A program made the position numbers and the translations under genes. A stretch of 25,855 nucleotides of DNA. It comes from a virus. Shown here one piece after another: positions 529-11,981 of this stretch (its first letter is position 1; every line of letters begins with the position of its first letter). The stretch spans positions 1 through 25,855 of IMG/VR virus record IMGVR_UViG_3300042562_000434. The stretch is one strand, 5' to 3'. Under the pieces are notes generated by a model, which did no database searches, was not told the DNA's origin, and saw nothing but the letters and a program-made list of their open reading frames with translations.

Positions 529-732
529 TTACTTCAAATATAATCCAACCAGACCAAATTCATCCGAAATAGCACCAATTTTATCAATTCTAACTAAGAA
601 TCTGATGGAAGACCATATTTCTGTAACTGAACAACCATATTCGTTAGCTAGATCAATCGGATTGGTATTTAGATAATCAGATTCAGTATAGTATTTTAAT
701 TCATCTAACAGTTTTTGTGTTTCTTTTTTCAT
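529..732 (-). CDS. Small helix-turn-helix-like protein, 67 aa
   Basis: Last gene of the replication operon. Its ATG overlaps the stop of the 139-aa gene by one base (TAATG), so translation is probably coupled. The segment NPIDLANEYGCSVTEIWSSI (about residues 25-44) has the spacing of a helix-turn-helix, and the following residues (IDKIGAISDEFG) could form a small wing. It may be a DNA-binding regulator or replication accessory factor. I cannot name a family. A terminator follows at 442-468. Existence of the gene is well supported by coupling and position; function is a guess from the fold pattern. Confidence 0.6.
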   Translation of the reverse strand: MKKETQKLLDELKYYTESDYLNTNPIDLANEYGCSVTEIWSSIRFLVRIDKIGAISDEFGLVGLYLK

Positions 733-1151
733 TACCTTTCTGATATTTTTTTTATTAGTTTTTCAACATGTTCACGTAGGAGCGTTCTATTGAACGATTT
801 ATCCGTTGTGAATGTCAATGTATGGGAAACCATATTTTGTTCAGTAGTGGCTGTCTTAAGATGTATACGGAAGGGATTAACCTTATTCTTCTCGTGCTCT
901 ATACATTTAGAGATATGAGATACCGATAATAGTCTTTGGTCAACCTTAACGAAAAACGGAATGGACTTAAGGTGCATCTGATCAGTACCTAATGAATTTA
1001 TCCACATAACTAGTGAGGCTTGCATACTGAATGGGATTTTACTAAACATTTCTAAAGAATTACTTTCATTAGAATAATCGGAAGAAGCTAAAAATACTTC
1101 TTTAAGTCTCGCCCAATAAGCAAGACTTAGTGTTTTCTCTATTGGATTCAT
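732..1151 (-). CDS. Unknown protein of the replication operon, 139 aa
   Basis: A 139-residue protein placed directly after the helicase loader. Its start overlaps the loader's stop (TAATG at 1151-1153), and its own stop overlaps the next start in the same way. No membrane segment, signal peptide or catalytic motif is visible. The N-terminal half looks helical (IEKTLSLAYWARLKEVFLAS); the C-terminal half is more mixed and ends in a basic helix (LREHVEKLIKKISER). The tight coupling suggests a role in replication or recombination, perhaps as a partner of the loader or initiator. That is inference from position only. Confidence 0.6.
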   Translation of the reverse strand: MNPIEKTLSLAYWARLKEVFLASSDYSNESNSLEMFSKIPFSMQASLVMWINSLGTDQMHLKSIPFFVKVDQRLLSVSHISKCIEHEKNKVNPFRIHLKTATTEQNMVSHTLTFTTDKSFNRTLLREHVEKLIKKISER

Positions 1152-1675
1152 TATAACTTTCTGTATGATTTACCAACTACTTCAACTACATTACACAATT
1201 CATATAATCTATCCTCTACATGATCTCCGTATATAGTTCCCATTTCAGTTAGAGATTTATTAGCAGTGATAAAAATTAATGGTTTAATTATGCTATCTTG
1301 ATAATCATCATAGAATATTTCTATTAGTTCCTTAAAGGGTTGGTAAATAGTACCATAAACGGAAACTGGGGATTCCCTACCGACATCATCAATAAATAAT
1401 GATTTCTTACCTCTAAGATCATTAATAGAAGCGTATTGAGTTGCTCTATAATTTGAACATAATGTATTAATCTTTAAATAGTGTGTACCAAACCATTTAG
1501 GTTCCTCGTCTTCATACTCCTTAAATTTCGGGTAGGACTCGAGATATTTTTTCATCCCAGTAGATTTACCAAGACCAGGAAGACCAACTATAATAATTCC
1601 TTTAGTTCTATCCAATTCGTCAGACTCTAATAAAAATTCTATTAGATCGTCTCTTTCTATTTTATACTTTATCAT
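1151..1675 (-). CDS. DnaC-like AAA+ helicase loader
   Basis: From the ATG at 1675 the protein is 174 aa. It shows an AAA+ core: Walker A GLPGLGKST (31-39), Walker B LFIDD (93-97), a sensor-1 ITAN (136-139) and a conserved EDRLYEL box with a candidate arginine finger (154-160), ending GKSYRK. This is the DnaC/IstB-type layout. Such proteins load the replicative helicase at the origin and hydrolyse ATP. The frame stays open upstream to a TTG at 1729, but I choose 1675 because the leader AAAATAAACAAACAA matches those before other starts in the window and because that start overlaps the initiator's stop by only 14 bp. The upstream initiator and this loader form a lambda O/P-like pair. No helicase gene is in the window, so it may recruit the host helicase. 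Confidence 0.85.
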   Translation of the reverse strand: MIKYKIERDDLIEFLLESDELDRTKGIIIVGLPGLGKSTGMKKYLESYPKFKEYEDEEPKWFGTHYLKINTLCSNYRATQYASINDLRGKKSLFIDDVGRESPVSVYGTIYQPFKELIEIFYDDYQDSIIKPLIFITANKSLTEMGTIYGDHVEDRLYELCNVVEVVGKSYRKL

Positions 1676-2627
1676 TTGTTTGTTTATTTTTAGGAATGTA
1701 TACTTTTGTGTTTTCATCAACCAAACCAAAAACTGAAGATCTAGTTGTAGATTCGTAGGCTTTCATCGCTAAAGAACCTGAAGATCCACCAACTCCTAAT
1801 ATAGGTTTAGTCCACATTCTATTTTCGATATAATTCTGAGGGGAAACTAAATACTTTCCATTATAATTCTCAGGAAGTAAACCATTAGCAATATACTTTT
1901 CTGAATGTTCTTTCATCAGTTTATTTAGTGTTAGTGCATCATCTTTAGAAATATCTTTAGGAATAACACTATCGATAGCAGTCCAAAGAATATTTCTTCT
2001 AGTTGTTTTAGGATATGCTTCTAACCAATCTTCAGAAATCCATTTCGTTAGAATATGATATGGTGTAAGCTTAACAGGAACTGAAGGTTCATTATCCTGC
2101 TGTTTCTTAACCCTAGGTTTACGAACTGGTTTCTTAATCGGAACTGAAGGTTTAATTAATTTTGGTTTAGTTGCAAGCTCGCTTGCTTTACTCTCTTCTT
2201 TCTTTCTTATATTCTTTCTTTCTTTTAGTGTGTGCGGTTGTTGTTCACTTGTTGTGCGGTTGTTGTTCACTTGTTGTTCATTTTGTTGTTCAACTTCAGT
2301 TCCATTTGACTGATATTTGCTCCAATTCGCTATTGTTATTAAGCGATTCTTGTTGCTCGTCTGTTGTTCAATTAGCTGTTCAACTTTTTCAAAATATTCA
2401 AGAATTCTCTGTATTTTATTCTCATCCATATTTAACTCATTTGCCAGTTGTTTACGTCCTGTTGTGAGCTGACCTGGTTGTAATTTGATTGGTTTCCCAC
2501 CAAACATTTCCTCTCTTTTTCCATAATTAGCCTTGATCAATAGGTGCACAAAAACATGGACCTTTTCGGAATCTTTATAAAATGCTTTGTCAGCAAGTGC
2601 TCTATATAGTTTTAACCATCCTTCCAT
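1662..2627 (-). CDS. Replication initiator, DnaD / lambda O-like
   Basis: A 321-aa protein. Residues 1-106 form a winged-helix type region (GWLKLYRALADKAFY..., PGQLTTGRKQLANELNMDEN, IANWSKYQ) typical of phage replisome organisers and DnaD-like initiators. Residues about 107-190 are a Q/N-rich then Lys/Pro-rich, probably disordered linker. Residues about 190-321 form a helical C-terminal region, a likely contact for the helicase loader encoded next. Such proteins bind the phage origin and bring in the loader and helicase. The linker DNA carries a 22-bp tandem repeat, a candidate origin. Its start overlaps the stop of the 107-aa gene (TAATG). Role by family resemblance; not confirmed by search. 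Confidence 0.75.
   Translation of the reverse strand: MEGWLKLYRALADKAFYKDSEKVHVFVHLLIKANYGKREEMFGGKPIKLQPGQLTTGRKQLANELNMDENKIQRILEYFEKVEQLIEQQTSNKNRLITIANWSKYQSNGTEVEQQNEQQVNNNRTTSEQQPHTLKERKNIRKKEESKASELATKPKLIKPSVPIKKPVRKPRVKKQQDNEPSVPVKLTPYHILTKWISEDWLEAYPKTTRRNILWTAIDSVIPKDISKDDALTLNKLMKEHSEKYIANGLLPENYNGKYLVSPQNYIENRMWTKPILGVGGSSGSLAMKAYESTTRSSVFGLVDENTKVYIPKNKQTNDKV
2198..2229. other. Polypyrimidine/polypurine tract beside the iteron-like repeats
   Basis: On the plus strand this stretch is nearly all C and T (TCTTTCTTTCTT-type runs), with one short TATA interruption. It abuts the tandem repeats at 2231-2274 inside the initiator gene, where it encodes a Lys/Glu/Arg-rich linker. A strongly strand-biased, easily melted tract beside initiator-binding repeats resembles the arrangement at the lambda origin. 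Function is inferred. Confidence 0.35.
2231..2274. repeat. Two perfect 22-bp tandem repeats; candidate replication origin
   Basis: Two adjacent identical 22-bp units (2231-2252 and 2253-2274), each starting TGTGCGG and containing TTGTTGTTCAC, lie inside the initiator gene. The unit is not a multiple of three, so the two copies are read in different frames (QVNNNRT, then TSEQQPHT); the repetition is therefore of DNA, not of protein. Partial copies of the TTGTTCA core continue to about 2380. In lambda the origin iterons lie inside gene O in the same relative place, between the DNA-binding domain and the helicase-loader-binding domain. Confidence 0.5.
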
Positions 2628-2950
2628 TATCCATTAATTATTTTTAAAATGTTCTCCCATTTGATAATAAAATATTTAATACCAAATAGGCCTTTTCCTG
2701 CATCTTCTACAAGGAACTCTTTTTCTAATATCTTAAGATGCTTTTTAATTTCAAACCTAGATCTTCTTGTGTCCTCGCATATTTCAGAAAACTGTTTAGC
2801 AAATTTTTCATCCGGGGATTCTAATGAATATTCCATTAGTTTGTTAAGTGTTACAGTTTCAAGTATACCCAAGGTGGAGCATAAATTTTTACTAAGCCAT
2901 AAGATCTCTTTGTCGCTTAATTTTTGTAATAGTGTTTCTTTTGTTTCCAT
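2627..2950 (-). CDS. Small winged-helix-like protein, first gene of the replication operon
   Basis: 107 aa. The region 62-93 (RRSRFEIKKHLKILEKEFLV, then a Gly-rich turn and IKYF) has the pattern of a recognition helix followed by a beta wing. The N-terminal half is helical (LSDKEILWLSKNL, LNKLMEY). It may be a transcriptional regulator or a DNA-binding replication accessory protein. It is the first gene after the terminator at 3070-3097 and is coupled by TAATG to the initiator. The leader is A-rich (AAATAAAATAAAAAA before ATG). I do not recognise a specific family. Confidence 0.6.
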   Translation of the reverse strand: METKETLLQKLSDKEILWLSKNLCSTLGILETVTLNKLMEYSLESPDEKFAKQFSEICEDTRRSRFEIKKHLKILEKEFLVEDAGKGLFGIKYFIIKWENILKIING

Positions 2951-3205: not shown

Positions 3206-3523
3206 TTATCTATCACTAATACTAGGACATTTCTGTTTTAATATTCGTTCTCCAAATAAATCTTGGAGTATTAGTAGACATTCATATCTTTTTGCAGTAA
3301 CTCTAGTTGGGAATTGTTCGATTGGGATTAGTTCAATTTGATCTATTCCTTCTTCTCTCAGGAAATTATACAATTCCTTGTCTTCATTCTTTTTAATTCC
3401 ACTATTATGTTGTGTCTGTCTACGGGTTAAATCATTAGTAATACCAATATAACGGATTATTCCACCAATTTCAACCTTATAAACCCAAGTCTTCCCCTGG
3501 GATTTCCTTTTCCGTAATGCCAT
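3206..3523 (-). CDS. GIY-YIG family nuclease
   Basis: 105 aa, a single compact domain. The motif pair is present: VYKV (Y15) in the GIY position, and RYIGITND (24-31) for YIG, followed by DLTRRQTQHNSG with the catalytic Arg (R34 or R35) and His39, and YECLL with the metal-binding Glu81. These are the key residues of GIY-YIG nucleases, which cut DNA using one divalent metal ion. No separate DNA-binding domain is attached, so it resembles small stand-alone phage GIY-YIG proteins (homing-type or repair-type) more than long homing enzymes. Its start overlaps the 92-aa gene by 47 bp. A terminator lies downstream. Confidence 0.82.
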   Translation of the reverse strand: MALRKRKSQGKTWVYKVEIGGIIRYIGITNDLTRRQTQHNSGIKKNEDKELYNFLREEGIDQIELIPIEQFPTRVTAKRYECLLILQDLFGERILKQKCPSISDR

Positions 3524-3755
3524 TTGCTTGTTTATAAGTTTCTACTCGAAAGTCCAACTCTTTTTTAATAACTGCGCAATATTCATACTCTTCCTCTACC
3601 TCAAAATTCCACAATAGAATCTCTAGGACCTCCATTGTCTCTAATGTATGTGGTTCGATAGCTATGATTAATGAGAAATCTGATCTAGTTAAATACTTTT
3701 TTATTTCTCTTGGCATCATATAAAGGATGTCCGATGGGTTGAAGTTATAATTCAT
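3477..3755 (-). CDS. Small protein with a UVR-like helical hairpin, 92 aa
   Basis: Residues about 42-72 (LEILLWNFEVEEEYEYCAVI followed by KKELDFRV) have the pattern of the UVR motif of UvrB/UvrC and related small phage proteins: an acidic helix, the E-x-C-A-x-I-K core and a second helix. In UvrB and UvrC this hairpin mediates protein-protein contact. The gene overlaps the HNH gene upstream by 11 bp and the GIY-YIG nuclease downstream by 47 bp. UvrC itself is a GIY-YIG nuclease with a UVR motif, so the adjacency could mean a split partner pair; that link is speculative. Confidence 0.55.
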   Translation of the reverse strand: MNYNFNPSDILYMMPREIKKYLTRSDFSLIIAIEPHTLETMEVLEILLWNFEVEEEYEYCAVIKKELDFRVETYKQANGITEKEIPGEDLGL

Positions 3756-4242
3756 CAGCTATTAGATTATTTTTAATAAATTTTAAATATTCGTCTCTTG
3801 CTTTTTCTTGTGTATCAAATAATCCTAGATTTTTTATTTTTCCATTTATATAAATTCTAGATCTCCATTTATTTGTTATATTGTGAAATGTTACCCCTCT
3901 ATATTTTCCAGAATCCTGCAATTTTCCGTAATATAAATGTACATTTTCTCTTTGTGTTACTATTCTTAAATTTTCTATATTATTATCTAATTTATTTCCG
4001 TTTATGTGATCTATAACTAATCTATGACCTGATAATTCATGATTTAAAAAAACCATTGCCATTAATTTATGTATATAAAATCCTTTCGGTGAATTATTTT
4101 TTCTTAGCATAATATGTCTATATCCAGAAGTTATTCCTCCAATCATTATTTTTTCTTTATTATATTTTAATGATTTAACTCTTCCGATATTACTAATTTG
4201 ATAATTAGAATATCCCTTTATTTCCTTCCAATATTCTTCCAT
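3745..4242 (-). CDS. NUMOD4-HNH-AP2 homing endonuclease
   Basis: 165 aa with three recognisable parts. NUMOD4 at about 3-30 (YWKEIKGYSNYQISNIGRVK) is a DNA-binding module. HNH at about 57-100 has IHKLMAMVFLNH, VIDHINGNKLDNNIENLR and the trailing QREN; H79 and the following Asn residues are the metal and catalytic site. An AP2-like DNA-binding domain spans about 112-155 (KYRGVTFH, KWRSRIYINGKIKNLGLFDT). This is a complete free-standing phage homing endonuclease. It sits between the lysis genes and the 92-aa/GIY-YIG pair, so it is probably an insertion. Its DNA looks even more AT-rich than the neighbours, consistent with separate acquisition. Confidence 0.9.
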   Translation of the reverse strand: MEEYWKEIKGYSNYQISNIGRVKSLKYNKEKIMIGGITSGYRHIMLRKNNSPKGFYIHKLMAMVFLNHELSGHRLVIDHINGNKLDNNIENLRIVTQRENVHLYYGKLQDSGKYRGVTFHNITNKWRSRIYINGKIKNLGLFDTQEKARDEYLKFIKNNLIADEL

Positions 4243-8765: not shown

Positions 8766-10187
8766 TTATAGTTTTGTTATATTGATTCCAATTCCAGGTA
8801 ATTGATCTATCACATCTTGATTATTATCATAATGAATTGCAATCCTCAATTCTAATACCTTTTCAACTTTGGCTTTATTAGAACCAGTTGCATAAATTCT
8901 AGATAATGGAATGCCATATCTTGCACCAAATTTATCTAATTCTGTTTCGTCTTGTCTAGCAGAGATGATATAGATCCTATTACCTTTAGCTATTTCTGAC
9001 TCCAATAAGGCTTTTCCTTTGTCTGTTGTTAGTGTATTATCAAAATCAAAAGATATTCTCTTAGACGCAGCCATTTGAGTTGGTTGAGCAGGGTTTGTCT
9101 CTGTTTTTATTCTTAATTCTTCAAAATCTATAAATTCTAATTTAACAGTAGGAGAATTTACCTTAAGTGCTTTTTCTAAACCTTTAGTTAGAATTTTTCT
9201 CATTGGATTGATCTGACTTCTATAAAGAATTTTTAATGACTGAACCATTTGGTCGGCAACACTAGAAAATCCACTAGTCATTGGTAATCCGAATAAACTT
9301 GGATCGTTAACTTTGTGGGACAACATGATATTAGTTTGTGCTTCTTTACTTAATGTTTCAAATTGTTGATAAGCATCAGTTACCTCGATATTTTCTACCG
9401 TTGTTGCATTTTCTTTATTTGAATTGAAGGATACTATAATATTACCAGCTACAGAAGTTCCTCTTACTTTAGCAAGAATGGCTGCTTCTGCTTCATCCTG
9501 TGCTTCATCAGTATCTGGGATACCTTCATTAACATTAATAATCTTACCCGCAGAGAAGTTATTCTTAATGTGATTATTATAATAGTTAGATAATTCCTCT
9601 TGTACTTCACAATATTGTAATCCGGATTGATAATCAGGTAAAGCAAATAACGGTTGTGGTGATTGTCTTTTGATATAAAGAATTTCACTTTCGTTATTCT
9701 CACCAAATCCAAAAGCAGGAACGGTATAAGGCTTGAATTTAGTTTTATTTTTCCAGTCAAAACAATACCAATATTTCTCAATATCTTCAGTCATATCATC
9801 TTGTTTATAAATAGCTACTGATTTAGTTGGAATATAAAGCATTTGTGCAACCTTTTTTTCCCTGCCTTTAGCATAAATTACTTGAACTGCACAGTTACCA
9901 TGTATCTTAAAATCCGTAGCAATCATTCTCATTTCTTCTTCTTCTAGAATTTCTTCTAGATTGATTGTACCAGAAGCATCAACTAAACCATCCCCCAATA
10001 TATAGTTGACATAATTGTCAATAATTGCTTGATTAGTTGGTGATCCCAAGTAACGATTTTCTACGTAATAAAAGAAATCATTGTCAGTTCCATTAGTAAC
10101 ATATTTATTAGTTTGGATAACTAATGTATGTGGGTCTGGTTTAACGTAATTATTTAGATTTAATACCGTGATTCTATCTTTTTTCAT
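8766..10187 (-). CDS. Portal protein with C-terminal HAD-type phosphatase-like domain
   Basis: 473 aa. Residues about 1-365 form a portal-type protein (YVENRYLGSPTNQAIIDNYV, FKIHGNCAVQVIYAKG, YIKRQSPQPLFALPDYQSGL, a Ser/Gly-rich segment around 310-320, and long helices around 322-350 for the stem and crown). The portal ring is the DNA gate of the capsid and the terminase docking site. Residues about 375-473 form a compact HAD core: DFDNT (D381, D383), IYIISAR (S409), Lys near 428-430 and HYDNN (D454), so all four HAD motifs are present. A phosphatase domain on a portal is unusual; it may be a virion-borne or capsid-bound enzyme, or a structural crown domain. The connector gene follows directly. 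Confidence 0.8.
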   Translation of the reverse strand: MKKDRITVLNLNNYVKPDPHTLVIQTNKYVTNGTDNDFFYYVENRYLGSPTNQAIIDNYVNYILGDGLVDASGTINLEEILEEEEMRMIATDFKIHGNCAVQVIYAKGREKKVAQMLYIPTKSVAIYKQDDMTEDIEKYWYCFDWKNKTKFKPYTVPAFGFGENNESEILYIKRQSPQPLFALPDYQSGLQYCEVQEELSNYYNNHIKNNFSAGKIINVNEGIPDTDEAQDEAEAAILAKVRGTSVAGNIIVSFNSNKENATTVENIEVTDAYQQFETLSKEAQTNIMLSHKVNDPSLFGLPMTSGFSSVADQMVQSLKILYRSQINPMRKILTKGLEKALKVNSPTVKLEFIDFEELRIKTETNPAQPTQMAASKRISFDFDNTLTTDKGKALLESEIAKGNRIYIISARQDETELDKFGARYGIPLSRIYATGSNKAKVEKVLELRIAIHYDNNQDVIDQLPGIGINITKL

Positions 10188-10740: not shown

Positions 10741-11298
10741 TTAGTCTTCAGTTATCCAAGAATCTATAACAATACTTGATAAATCTTCGATTGCACCAGC
10801 AGATAACCAATAAATAGGTTCAGATTCTTTAGCAGTAGCAGTAAAAGTATAACCATTAATTCCATCTATAGTTCCACCTAAATCTGATTTACCCGTTATC
10901 TGACAACCGTTTTCAGTTCCCATTATGAAATGTTTACCATTATTCATCTTACATATCAAAAATGGTCTACCCTTAGCCATCATCTTGAATTGATATTCCA
11001 TCTCCTTACCTAAATTAGGTAGTACAAAGGTTAAAGAAGGTGAATACATAGTAGTAAAGTTATCTTCACTAAATGTTTGTGTTTGAGTAAAAGCATTAGT
11101 TGTATGCCTTAATTCAAATTTAGCAGAAGAAGCAGCTGGTATTAATCCAGTAGAAAGTAATTCATGACCAGCTTCATTTGAAACTGTTTGTCCATCAAAT
11201 GCTCCTTCTAAGAAATTCATTAAATATATTGATTTGATTCCTGCTGTTAAATTTTTACAAGATAATAGTTTCTTACCTTTTGTTATATTACAACCCAT
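10741..11298 (-). CDS. Tail-tube protein candidate, paralogue 2
   Basis: 185 aa, clearly homologous along its length to the gene at 11400-11981. Shared blocks include CNITKGKKLLSCKNLTAGIK against CNISKGKALLTCKNLTAGIK, FELRHTTNAFTQ, MYSPSLTFVLPNLGKEMEYQ and GTENGCQITGKSDLGGTID. The two differ mainly in the loop around residues 30-58 and at the C-terminus. Position after the major capsid gene, the beta-rich pattern and separate terminators (suggesting high expression) point to a major tail (tube) protein or related virion protein; capsid decoration is the main alternative. After the TAA the same frame stays open for 16 codons (TTPSPIIPCHPGQMCD). Confidence 0.6.
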   Translation of the reverse strand: MGCNITKGKKLLSCKNLTAGIKSIYLMNFLEGAFDGQTVSNEAGHELLSTGLIPAASSAKFELRHTTNAFTQTQTFSEDNFTTMYSPSLTFVLPNLGKEMEYQFKMMAKGRPFLICKMNNGKHFIMGTENGCQITGKSDLGGTIDGINGYTFTATAKESEPIYWLSAGAIEDLSSIVIDSWITED

Positions 11299-11399: not shown

Positions 11400-11981
11400 T
11401 TATGCAGGAAGATCTTCTCCAACAAATAAAGTAGAAGTCATAGTACCCAATCCAGTTATTGCACCAGCAGATAACCAAAAGATTGGCTCTGATTCTTTAG
11501 CAGTAGCAGTAAATGTGTACCCATTAGCAGCATCAATTGTACCACCTAAGTCAGATTTACCTGTTATTTGGCAACCGTTTTCAGTTCCCATTACGAAATA
11601 TTTTCCGTTATTCATTTGACAGAACAAGAATGGTCTTCCCCAAGCCATCATTTTCCATTGGTATTCCATTTCTTTTCCAAGATTTGGTAGTACAAATGTC
11701 AATGAAGGAGCATACATAGTAGTGTAGTTATCTTCACTAGCTGTTTGTGCTTGAGTAAAAGCATTAGTTGTATGTCTTAATTCGAATTTGTAAGCTTTTG
11801 TAGTAGGAGAATCTGCTGTTAAACCTGCAACTGTATTTAATATATGACCAGTTTCGGTAGAAGTGGTACCACTAGGTGTTAATCCTCCGTCTTTGAAATC
11901 TACTAAATATATTGCTTTGATACCTGCTGTTAAATTCTTACAAGTTAAAAGGGCTTTCCCCTTTGATATATTACAAGGCAT
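11400..11981 (-). CDS. Tail-tube protein candidate, paralogue 1
   Basis: 193 aa. It is a full-length paralogue of the 185-aa gene downstream, with an extended loop (LTPSGTTSTETGHILNTVAG, about 34-53) and a different C-terminus (GEDLPA). It directly follows the major capsid gene. Beta-rich, without membrane segments; two Cys near the N-terminus (C3 and C14) are conserved in both copies. Likely the main tail-tube subunit or another abundant virion protein. Flanked by a hairpin after the capsid gene and a strong terminator downstream, as expected for an abundant transcript. Assignment rests on position and abundance signals rather than a recognised domain. Confidence 0.6.
   Translation of the reverse strand: MPCNISKGKALLTCKNLTAGIKAIYLVDFKDGGLTPSGTTSTETGHILNTVAGLTADSPTTKAYKFELRHTTNAFTQAQTASEDNYTTMYAPSLTFVLPNLGKEMEYQWKMMAWGRPFLFCQMNNGKYFVMGTENGCQITGKSDLGGTIDAANGYTFTATAKESEPIFWLSAGAITGLGTMTSTLFVGEDLPA

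Follow-up and report, generated by a model that had tools for sequence, protein, structure and literature searches.

The window analyzed here is the whole of virus record IMGVR_UViG_3300042562_000434 (label G000), 25,855 bases in length. Its large terminase is 53% identical to the counterpart in Flavobacterium phage 11b, with 99% of the query covered, and on the strength of this match the virus likely has a Flavobacteriia host. With almost every gene on the minus strand, cumulative GC skew declines almost steadily along the 25.9-kb record and carries no information on the origin. The replication initiator gene (1662..2627, minus strand) encodes 321 amino acids comprising a wHTH domain, a linker that carries the putative origin, and a C-terminal part, as assigned with PHROG 2514, PHROG 345, PF09681, and tblastn. 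Next to it, as the sequence-only reading had noted, lies a DnaC-like helicase loader (1151..1729, minus strand; PHROG 3277, E 2.3e-11; PHROG 50, E 1.5e-8), whose open frame begins at 1729 and whose probable start, inferred from the sequence, is an ATG at 1675 that overlaps the end of the initiator gene. Downstream of the loader, a 139-aa frame (732-1151, minus strand) was without a Pfam or PHROG match. Upstream of the initiator, a small gene (2627..2950, minus strand) shares one base with the initiator start codon and has a weak HTH match (PF01022, E 0.023; 15.0 bits, below the cut-off of 22). Elsewhere on the minus strand are a small GIY-YIG nuclease frame at 3206-3523 (PF01541, E 4.1e-8); a NUMOD4-HNH-AP2 frame at 3745-4242, which is probably a homing endonuclease; a frame at 8766-10187, in the portal position, whose C-terminal end (FDFDNTL...SARQ) resembles a HAD-type phosphatase by eye; and side-by-side paralogous proteins of 185 and 193 aa (10741-11298 and 11400-11981).

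The initiator matches PHROG 2514 (DnaD-like, E 2.1e-30) and PHROG 345 ('replication initiation O-like', E 1.1e-8), and scores below threshold against PF09681 (Phage_rep_org_N; 22.4 bits, cut-off 23.3) and TIGR01714 (16.3 bits, cut-off 49.8). A tblastn search with the initiator returned 157 phage records at E <= 1e-5. Among the matches listed (the best 40 of the 157), alignment runs through the N-terminal half, and these matches include HK022 O and proteins of Listeria, Lactobacillus, Pseudomonas, and Bacillus phages, with Staphylococcus in the tally. The O-like proteins of HK022, Sf6, and phage L were matched at E 2e-9 to 4e-10 (HK022 O, E 2e-9; phage L, E 8e-10). By these sequence comparisons, the wHTH is homologous to the initiators of HK022 (O), phage L, Listeria, Lactobacillus, and Staphylococcus phages, which places the protein with the HK022/phage L-type O and DnaD-like phage initiators through the N-terminal domain. 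Lambda O was also considered as a wHTH homologue and was dropped, as neither BLASTP (E 4.5) nor hhalign (probability 0.4%) detected sequence homology to it.

In an AlphaFold2 model, the wHTH block (aa 1-106, coded by 2310..2627, minus strand) has pLDDT values mostly of 96-98, with the remainder poorly modeled (mean pLDDT 68.9), and it shows helix 2 at aa 58-65, the recognition helix 3 at 69-81, and a wing at 86-99. VIA-align ranked DNA-binding RbkR first, followed by CRP/CAP, whose DNA-binding domain aligned with the model at Z of about 9.9 over 67 residues; Foldseek with the wHTH model gave no match at E <= 0.001. These likenesses reflect a widespread fold and demonstrate no kinship. Residues 58, 70, and 74 presumably correspond to CAP R169, E181, and R185, going by sequence correspondence.

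Directly after the wHTH-coding part, in the initiator linker where the sequence-only reading had located its repeats, repeat search, Tandem Repeats Finder, and array scoring identified a main array of five units plus a half unit (2231..2292, minus strand). The unit on the minus strand is TGAACAACAAG, whose 11 bp equal one turn of DNA. Units 1-3 lie at 2282-2292, 2270-2280, and 2259-2269, units 4-5 at 2248-2258 and 2237-2247, and the half unit CGCACA at 2231-2236 (all minus strand), giving start-to-start spacings of 12, 11, 11, 11, and 11. The perfect 22-bp duplication reported at 2231-2274 is present (2231-2252 plus 2253-2274). The repeat is real and not due to chance, but each 22-bp copy consists of two 11-bp units, and the true unit is a direct 11-bp repeat; Tandem Repeats Finder reports both periods at the duplicate. 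Unit 4 reads CGCACAACAAG rather than TGAACAACAAG, and its triplet in the stop phase is CGC. The copies do encode different peptides, as had been claimed, since the encoded array peptide EQQNEQQVNNNRTTSEQQPHT is a single DNA unit translated in three frames.

An exact 22-bp duplicate occurred in none of 2000 synonymous-codon and none of 2000 codon-order shuffles of the linker, and the 11-bp array score was matched by 0/1000 shuffles of either kind. The repeat is a real, selected DNA element, and repeats embedded in the initiator gene are preserved at the DNA level both in the window and in its family, in agreement with the earlier proposal of selection on the DNA. Across the window, iteron-like sites with <=2 mismatches numbered 25 against 19.2 expected, and 12 of 100 shuffles reached 25; thus, there is no iteron excess outside the gene.

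The partial copies that the sequence-only reading followed to about 2380 correspond to a second, degenerate block of three units inside the wing-coding part (2349..2382, minus strand). Two units at 2349-2370, in 11-bp register and with 2 mismatches each, were found by score, and the third, TGAACAGCTAA at 2372-2382, was taken from the sequence directly; the spacings are 12 and 11. None of 30 synonymous shuffles reached the two-unit score of this block. On the other side of the main array, the polypyrimidine tract noted on the plus strand is indeed present (about 2190-2229) and is a purine-rich stretch on the coding strand that adjoins the array. Read on the minus strand, this A-rich, purine-rich tract (about 2190..2230) contains AAAGAA motifs and is the presumed strand-opening region.

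To place these features in a family, a sample was assembled with wHTH alignments. Single-protein scans of viral contigs, for which the initiator and the loader of the window served as queries, brought up no relative, and a ten-sequence alignment was too diverse for scanning, whereas two- and three-sequence wHTH alignments worked. The two-sequence scan gave 80 viral loci (the best 80 of 304 confirmed), and the three-sequence scan gave 10 genome loci. Together with the window and nine chosen phage records, these loci made up 100 genes. A family search of 295 genomes of one class found 4 with a match, 3 of them weak, and did not contribute to the sample. L074 was left out of all linker counts because its frame stops just after the domain, and removal of 24 of the remaining 99 linkers as redundant left 75 nonredundant genes, window included. 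As the scan queries ended at the end of the wHTH, the loci were not selected for their linkers. A held-out set was drawn from 239 new viral loci, of which 4 were too short; of the other 235, 125 were dropped as >=75% identical to one of the 99 training domains, and 39 of the resulting 110 were redundant, leaving 71.

The comparison among related phages that the sequence-only reading had called for found the arrangement conserved, with 11 the best lag among lags 5-20 in 66/75 genes. Over the 75 genes, identity at lag 11 averaged 0.562; synonymous shuffles reached 0.424 (z 26.6), and codon-order shuffles 0.335 (z 38.0). With the synonymous shuffles as the null, z was 21.7 at lag 22, 11.7 at lag 33, 6.6 at lag 12, and -3.7 at lag 9. 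An array score of at least 0.8 at period 11 was obtained for 58/75 linkers, 13/225 synonymous shuffles, and 0/225 codon-order shuffles, and elsewhere in the same genes for only 1/73 C-terminal and 0/75 wHTH stretches. At a looser 66% identity, 69/75 genes had an array. The six that lacked a clear one at this identity (L007, L032, L038, L053, L067, and L088) count against the origin reading, with L007 appearing by eye to be a looser 11-12-bp array. Among the held-out loci, the array score passed in 53/70 against 5/70 shuffles; the best lag was 11 in 51/70 linkers and 12 in 12/70, the latter again counting against that reading. Seven of eight further named phages have 11-bp arrays by score; the other, SL25, has no array score and is mixed 11/12 by eye. 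In L012, whose wHTH is 53% identical to that of the window, the spacing is again 12, 11, 11, 11, 11, with CGA in the stop phase.

The flanking features also recur. AAGAAT occurs 30-150 nt past the domain end in 58/75 loci, whereas synonymous shuffles give 29.5 and codon-order shuffles 23.2. Its sites in two reading phases number 116 and 26 against synonymous nulls of 27.1 and 10.7; AAGAAT/AAAGAA is enriched family-wide at the position following the array. In 45/75 genes, where 10.4 would be expected, the 36-mer of lowest stability lies 30-130 nt past the domain. The window gene is an exception, with its least stable 36-mer at 2385-2420 and not in the purine tract, which counts against an origin reading. 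Two-unit matches in the wing-coding part beat synonymous shuffles (at most 1/30 shuffles reaching the real score) in 26/67 loci, window included, where about four would be expected. This excess suggests that the origin often begins within the wHTH-coding part, as is also hinted at by phages L, Sf6, and HK022, whose arrays are split.

An 11-bp unit does not fill whole codons, so each unit is translated in another frame than the one before it. Any TGA or TAA that the unit contains would be a stop codon in one of the three frames, and in that frame CGA or CAA is usually found instead. The stop triplet stands out of frame in at least 2 copies in 33/69 arrays. In the 36 in-frame copies, CGA replaces TGA 14 times and CAA replaces TAA 10 times, so that a plain T-to-C change accounts for 24/36; the 12 other triplets are TGC (3), TCA (2), CCA (2), and CGC (the window), TAT, TTG, TCG, and CAG (once each). 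The remaining eight bases match the consensus at 85% of 288 positions in in-phase units and at 78% of 880 positions in out-of-phase units. In-phase units thus match as well as the others, which implies that selection preserves the DNA unit and that nothing but the stop is avoided. The held-out loci behaved similarly, with 31/61 such arrays, 36 in-phase copies, and the T-to-C change in 31/36 (29 CAA, 2 CGA).

Bases of the iteron covary with residues of the wHTH. A register-free scan, in which each column was corrected for the rest of the domain, was run on 66 loci (the 75 minus 8 without an array at 72% identity and minus L093). The top columns were R58 (0.301), N70 (0.276), and R74 (0.240), and the excess of helix-2/helix-3 columns over other columns was reached by 0/300 permutations. 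A code was then recorded before any new loci were fetched: Q70 with A2, R70 with G2, K70 with GG, R58 with C5, and L/I/V 58 with A5. In 48 of the 71 held-out loci, the hexamer preceding the border could be read; the 23 without a readable one count against the origin reading. Q70 went with A2 in 22/23 held-out loci, R70 with G2 in 9/10, and K70 with G2 in 6/6 (GG at bases 2-3 in 5/6); R58 went with C5 in 22/22, and L/I/V/T at 58 went with A5 in 20/22, with C once and G once. The corresponding Fisher values, which treat loci as independent and ignore relatedness, are 2.5e-6 and 2.2e-11. The held-out exceptions are L287, L158, L175, and L347; in L347, the remaining copies conform. Staphylococcus phage PVL (Ile58) also departs from the residue-58 rule, by reading, and counts against it.

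The covariation was also followed along a tree built without the contact columns and limited to tips in the named residue/base classes (99 and 54 of 106), a restriction that removes exceptions with other bases. For the residue-58 class and base 5, 12 branches carried a change in both (out of 12 residue and 13 base changes; 99 tips), and for residue 70 and base 2, 16 branches did (16 and 16; 54 tips). When all columns were tested against all bases in the 106 loci, with all states kept and changes mapped on a tree, base 2 was best matched by N70 (p 2.9e-14, the runner-up reaching 3.2e-4), base 3 by K71 (p 1.9e-4), base 4 by Q73 (p 3.3e-5; R73 with C4 in 77/81), base 5 by R58 (p 6.7e-9), and base 1 by the wing residue E87 (p 1.7e-5); among all columns, none clearly matched base 6. 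The residue-73 rule was drawn from this combined 106-locus set, and the held-out test covered residues 58 and 70. L010 shares 77-78% of its C-terminal part but only 30-32% of its wHTH with L096 or L098, and the iterons differ, whereas many pairs that resemble each other in the wHTH but have unrelated C-termini, such as L012 and L027, have alike iterons. L033 and L052, at 70% likeness, nevertheless have different bases at iteron position 2 and, along with them, different residues at position 70, and the named Lactobacillus phages Lrm1 (R58, TGTCCA) and phiAT3 (A58, TGTCAA) differ at base 5. The Lactobacillus-type loci L010, L096, L098, L359, and L364, with a common C-terminal part and different wHTHs and iterons, are natural module swaps.

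From these patterns we propose a code in which residue 70 dictates base 2 (Gln-A, Arg-G, Lys-G), residue 73 base 4 (Arg-C), and residue 58 base 5 (Arg-C, aliphatic-A). We consider it probable, on this sequence evidence, that a large initiator class, spread over phages of several bacterial phyla, recognizes its origin by such a near-linear code, with one monomer per 11-bp turn, and that the recurrent peptide EQQxNNKRTTxEQQxNTNKNxKN is an origin in translation, with an Arg that stems from an escaped stop codon.

Taken as a whole, the segment is very likely a phage replication origin embedded in its own initiator gene, with each wHTH reading one unit per turn. The covariation suggests that the array is most probably the binding array of the initiator, and the origin role appears well supported by position and precedent. 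The initiator wHTH would bind one 11-bp unit per helical turn, so that successive monomers would follow one another head to tail along a single face of the double helix. The resulting nucleoprotein array would strain the adjoining A/purine-rich tract, which would then open, and the C-terminal part and the DnaC-like loader would bring in the host helicase. Since the array bases also encode the linker, the unit passes through all three frames, and the stop-phase copy carries a tolerated change.

An initiator-bound array might instead serve regulation (autorepression, copy-number control, or partition), with the origin elsewhere. The binding evidence presented here would fit that role equally, and plasmid iterons often have control roles; moreover, the 25.9-kb record may be a fragment from which other candidate origins are missing. 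Nevertheless, the position of the array matches that of origins annotated in phages L and Sf6, direct-repeat regions inside the rep genes of TP901-1 and Tuc2009 are reported as origins (PMC8965321), and the A/purine-rich tract after the array is conserved (AAGAAT in 58/75 loci against 29.5). We therefore regard a purely regulatory array as improbable. That the DNA repeats are a by-product of repeated peptides in a low-complexity linker is less probable still. The encoded linker is indeed Q/N-rich, and synonymous shuffles retain part of the signal (lag-11 identity, 0.424), but the observed values far exceed those shuffles, 11 is not a multiple of 3, and the periods of 9 and 12 that a peptide would favor are weak. 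Moreover, relatives keep the 11-bp DNA period despite a changed peptide, and the bases are predictable from helix residues. The perfection of the 22-bp duplicate could also be read as recent slippage without function, but the layout recurs in relatives whose wHTHs are about half identical, such as L012 (53%), which makes this explanation scarcely credible. An origin embedded in the initiator gene thus remains our preferred reading.

An origin within an initiator gene is a known kind of arrangement, and 11-bp iterons are in print for one phage (L). The breadth of the pattern, the frame-cycling with stop escape, and the residue-base rules did not turn up when open-licence papers were searched, a body of literature that leaves out most subscription journals. 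Few phage origins have been mapped so far. If the rule holds, sequence would reveal the origin and the specificity of the initiator in many temperate phages, and if the code is true, origin sequences would be predictable from protein sequence. The array is also a clean case of dual coding, in which a binding array is obliged to avoid stops in one frame, and the family supplies numerous natural protein-DNA pairs on which the evolution of winged-helix specificity could be tested.

The sequence-only reading had likened the segment to the lambda origin, and the layout bears this out. In lambda ori, as in the window, the iterons lie in the initiator gene between its DNA-binding and C-terminal parts, an A-rich tract stands beside them, and the helicase-loading gene comes next. 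The likeness does not extend to the repeats: lambda iterons are 18-19-bp inverted repeats with starts 20, 24, and 23 bp apart, whereas the window has direct 11-bp units and no such inverted repeats. Its initiator has no detectable sequence homology to lambda O. Plasmid iterons are about 20 bp long and lie outside the rep gene, and their initiators belong to another family. According to PMC5043065 and PMC7466680, lambda iterons are inverted repeats that bind O dimers, and plasmid iterons are direct and helically phased; in the iteron plasmids of the P1 and RK2 type, the direct repeats are in phase with the DNA helix, as in the window (PMC5043065).

Closer in arrangement are Tuc2009 Rep and r1t ORF11 of Lactococcus phages, in which 11-bp direct repeats are followed by A/purine-rich repeats inside the rep gene, as in the window. 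By eye, their N-terminal sequence looks like another family, and their core (TGGAACC or CAACCA) is unlike that of the window. In the loci representing these two phages (L114 and L115), the 11-bp repeats precede 5/15-bp purine-rich repeats. The TP901-1 and Tuc2009 initiators are reported to bind the direct-repeat regions in their own rep genes (PMC8965321). For 80alpha, complementation of ORF20 in trans reportedly failed, which points to an embedded origin (PMC5499656). The 11-bp period was sought in the initiator genes of 80alpha and TP901-1, which have other N-terminal sequences, and was absent from both, which counts against the origin reading.

The nearest counterparts are Salmonella phage L gene 18, Sf6 gene 43, and HK022 O, which, like the window gene, encode a homologous wHTH followed within the gene by 11-bp direct repeats. 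In P22, by contrast, the repeats are of about 20 bp, and the 11-bp period is absent. The core is TGTCCA in L and Sf6 and TGAACA in the window, the array of the L/Sf6/HK022 group is split in two blocks, unlike the main array of the window, and the next gene is a DnaB-like helicase in L and Sf6 rather than a DnaC-like loader. PMC8022706 describes six imprecise 11-bp repeats in phage L gene 18 as the likely origin and reports that three distantly related initiators each carry different iterons in their genes. In the sequence records of L and Sf6, a putative origin is annotated precisely where the array lies.
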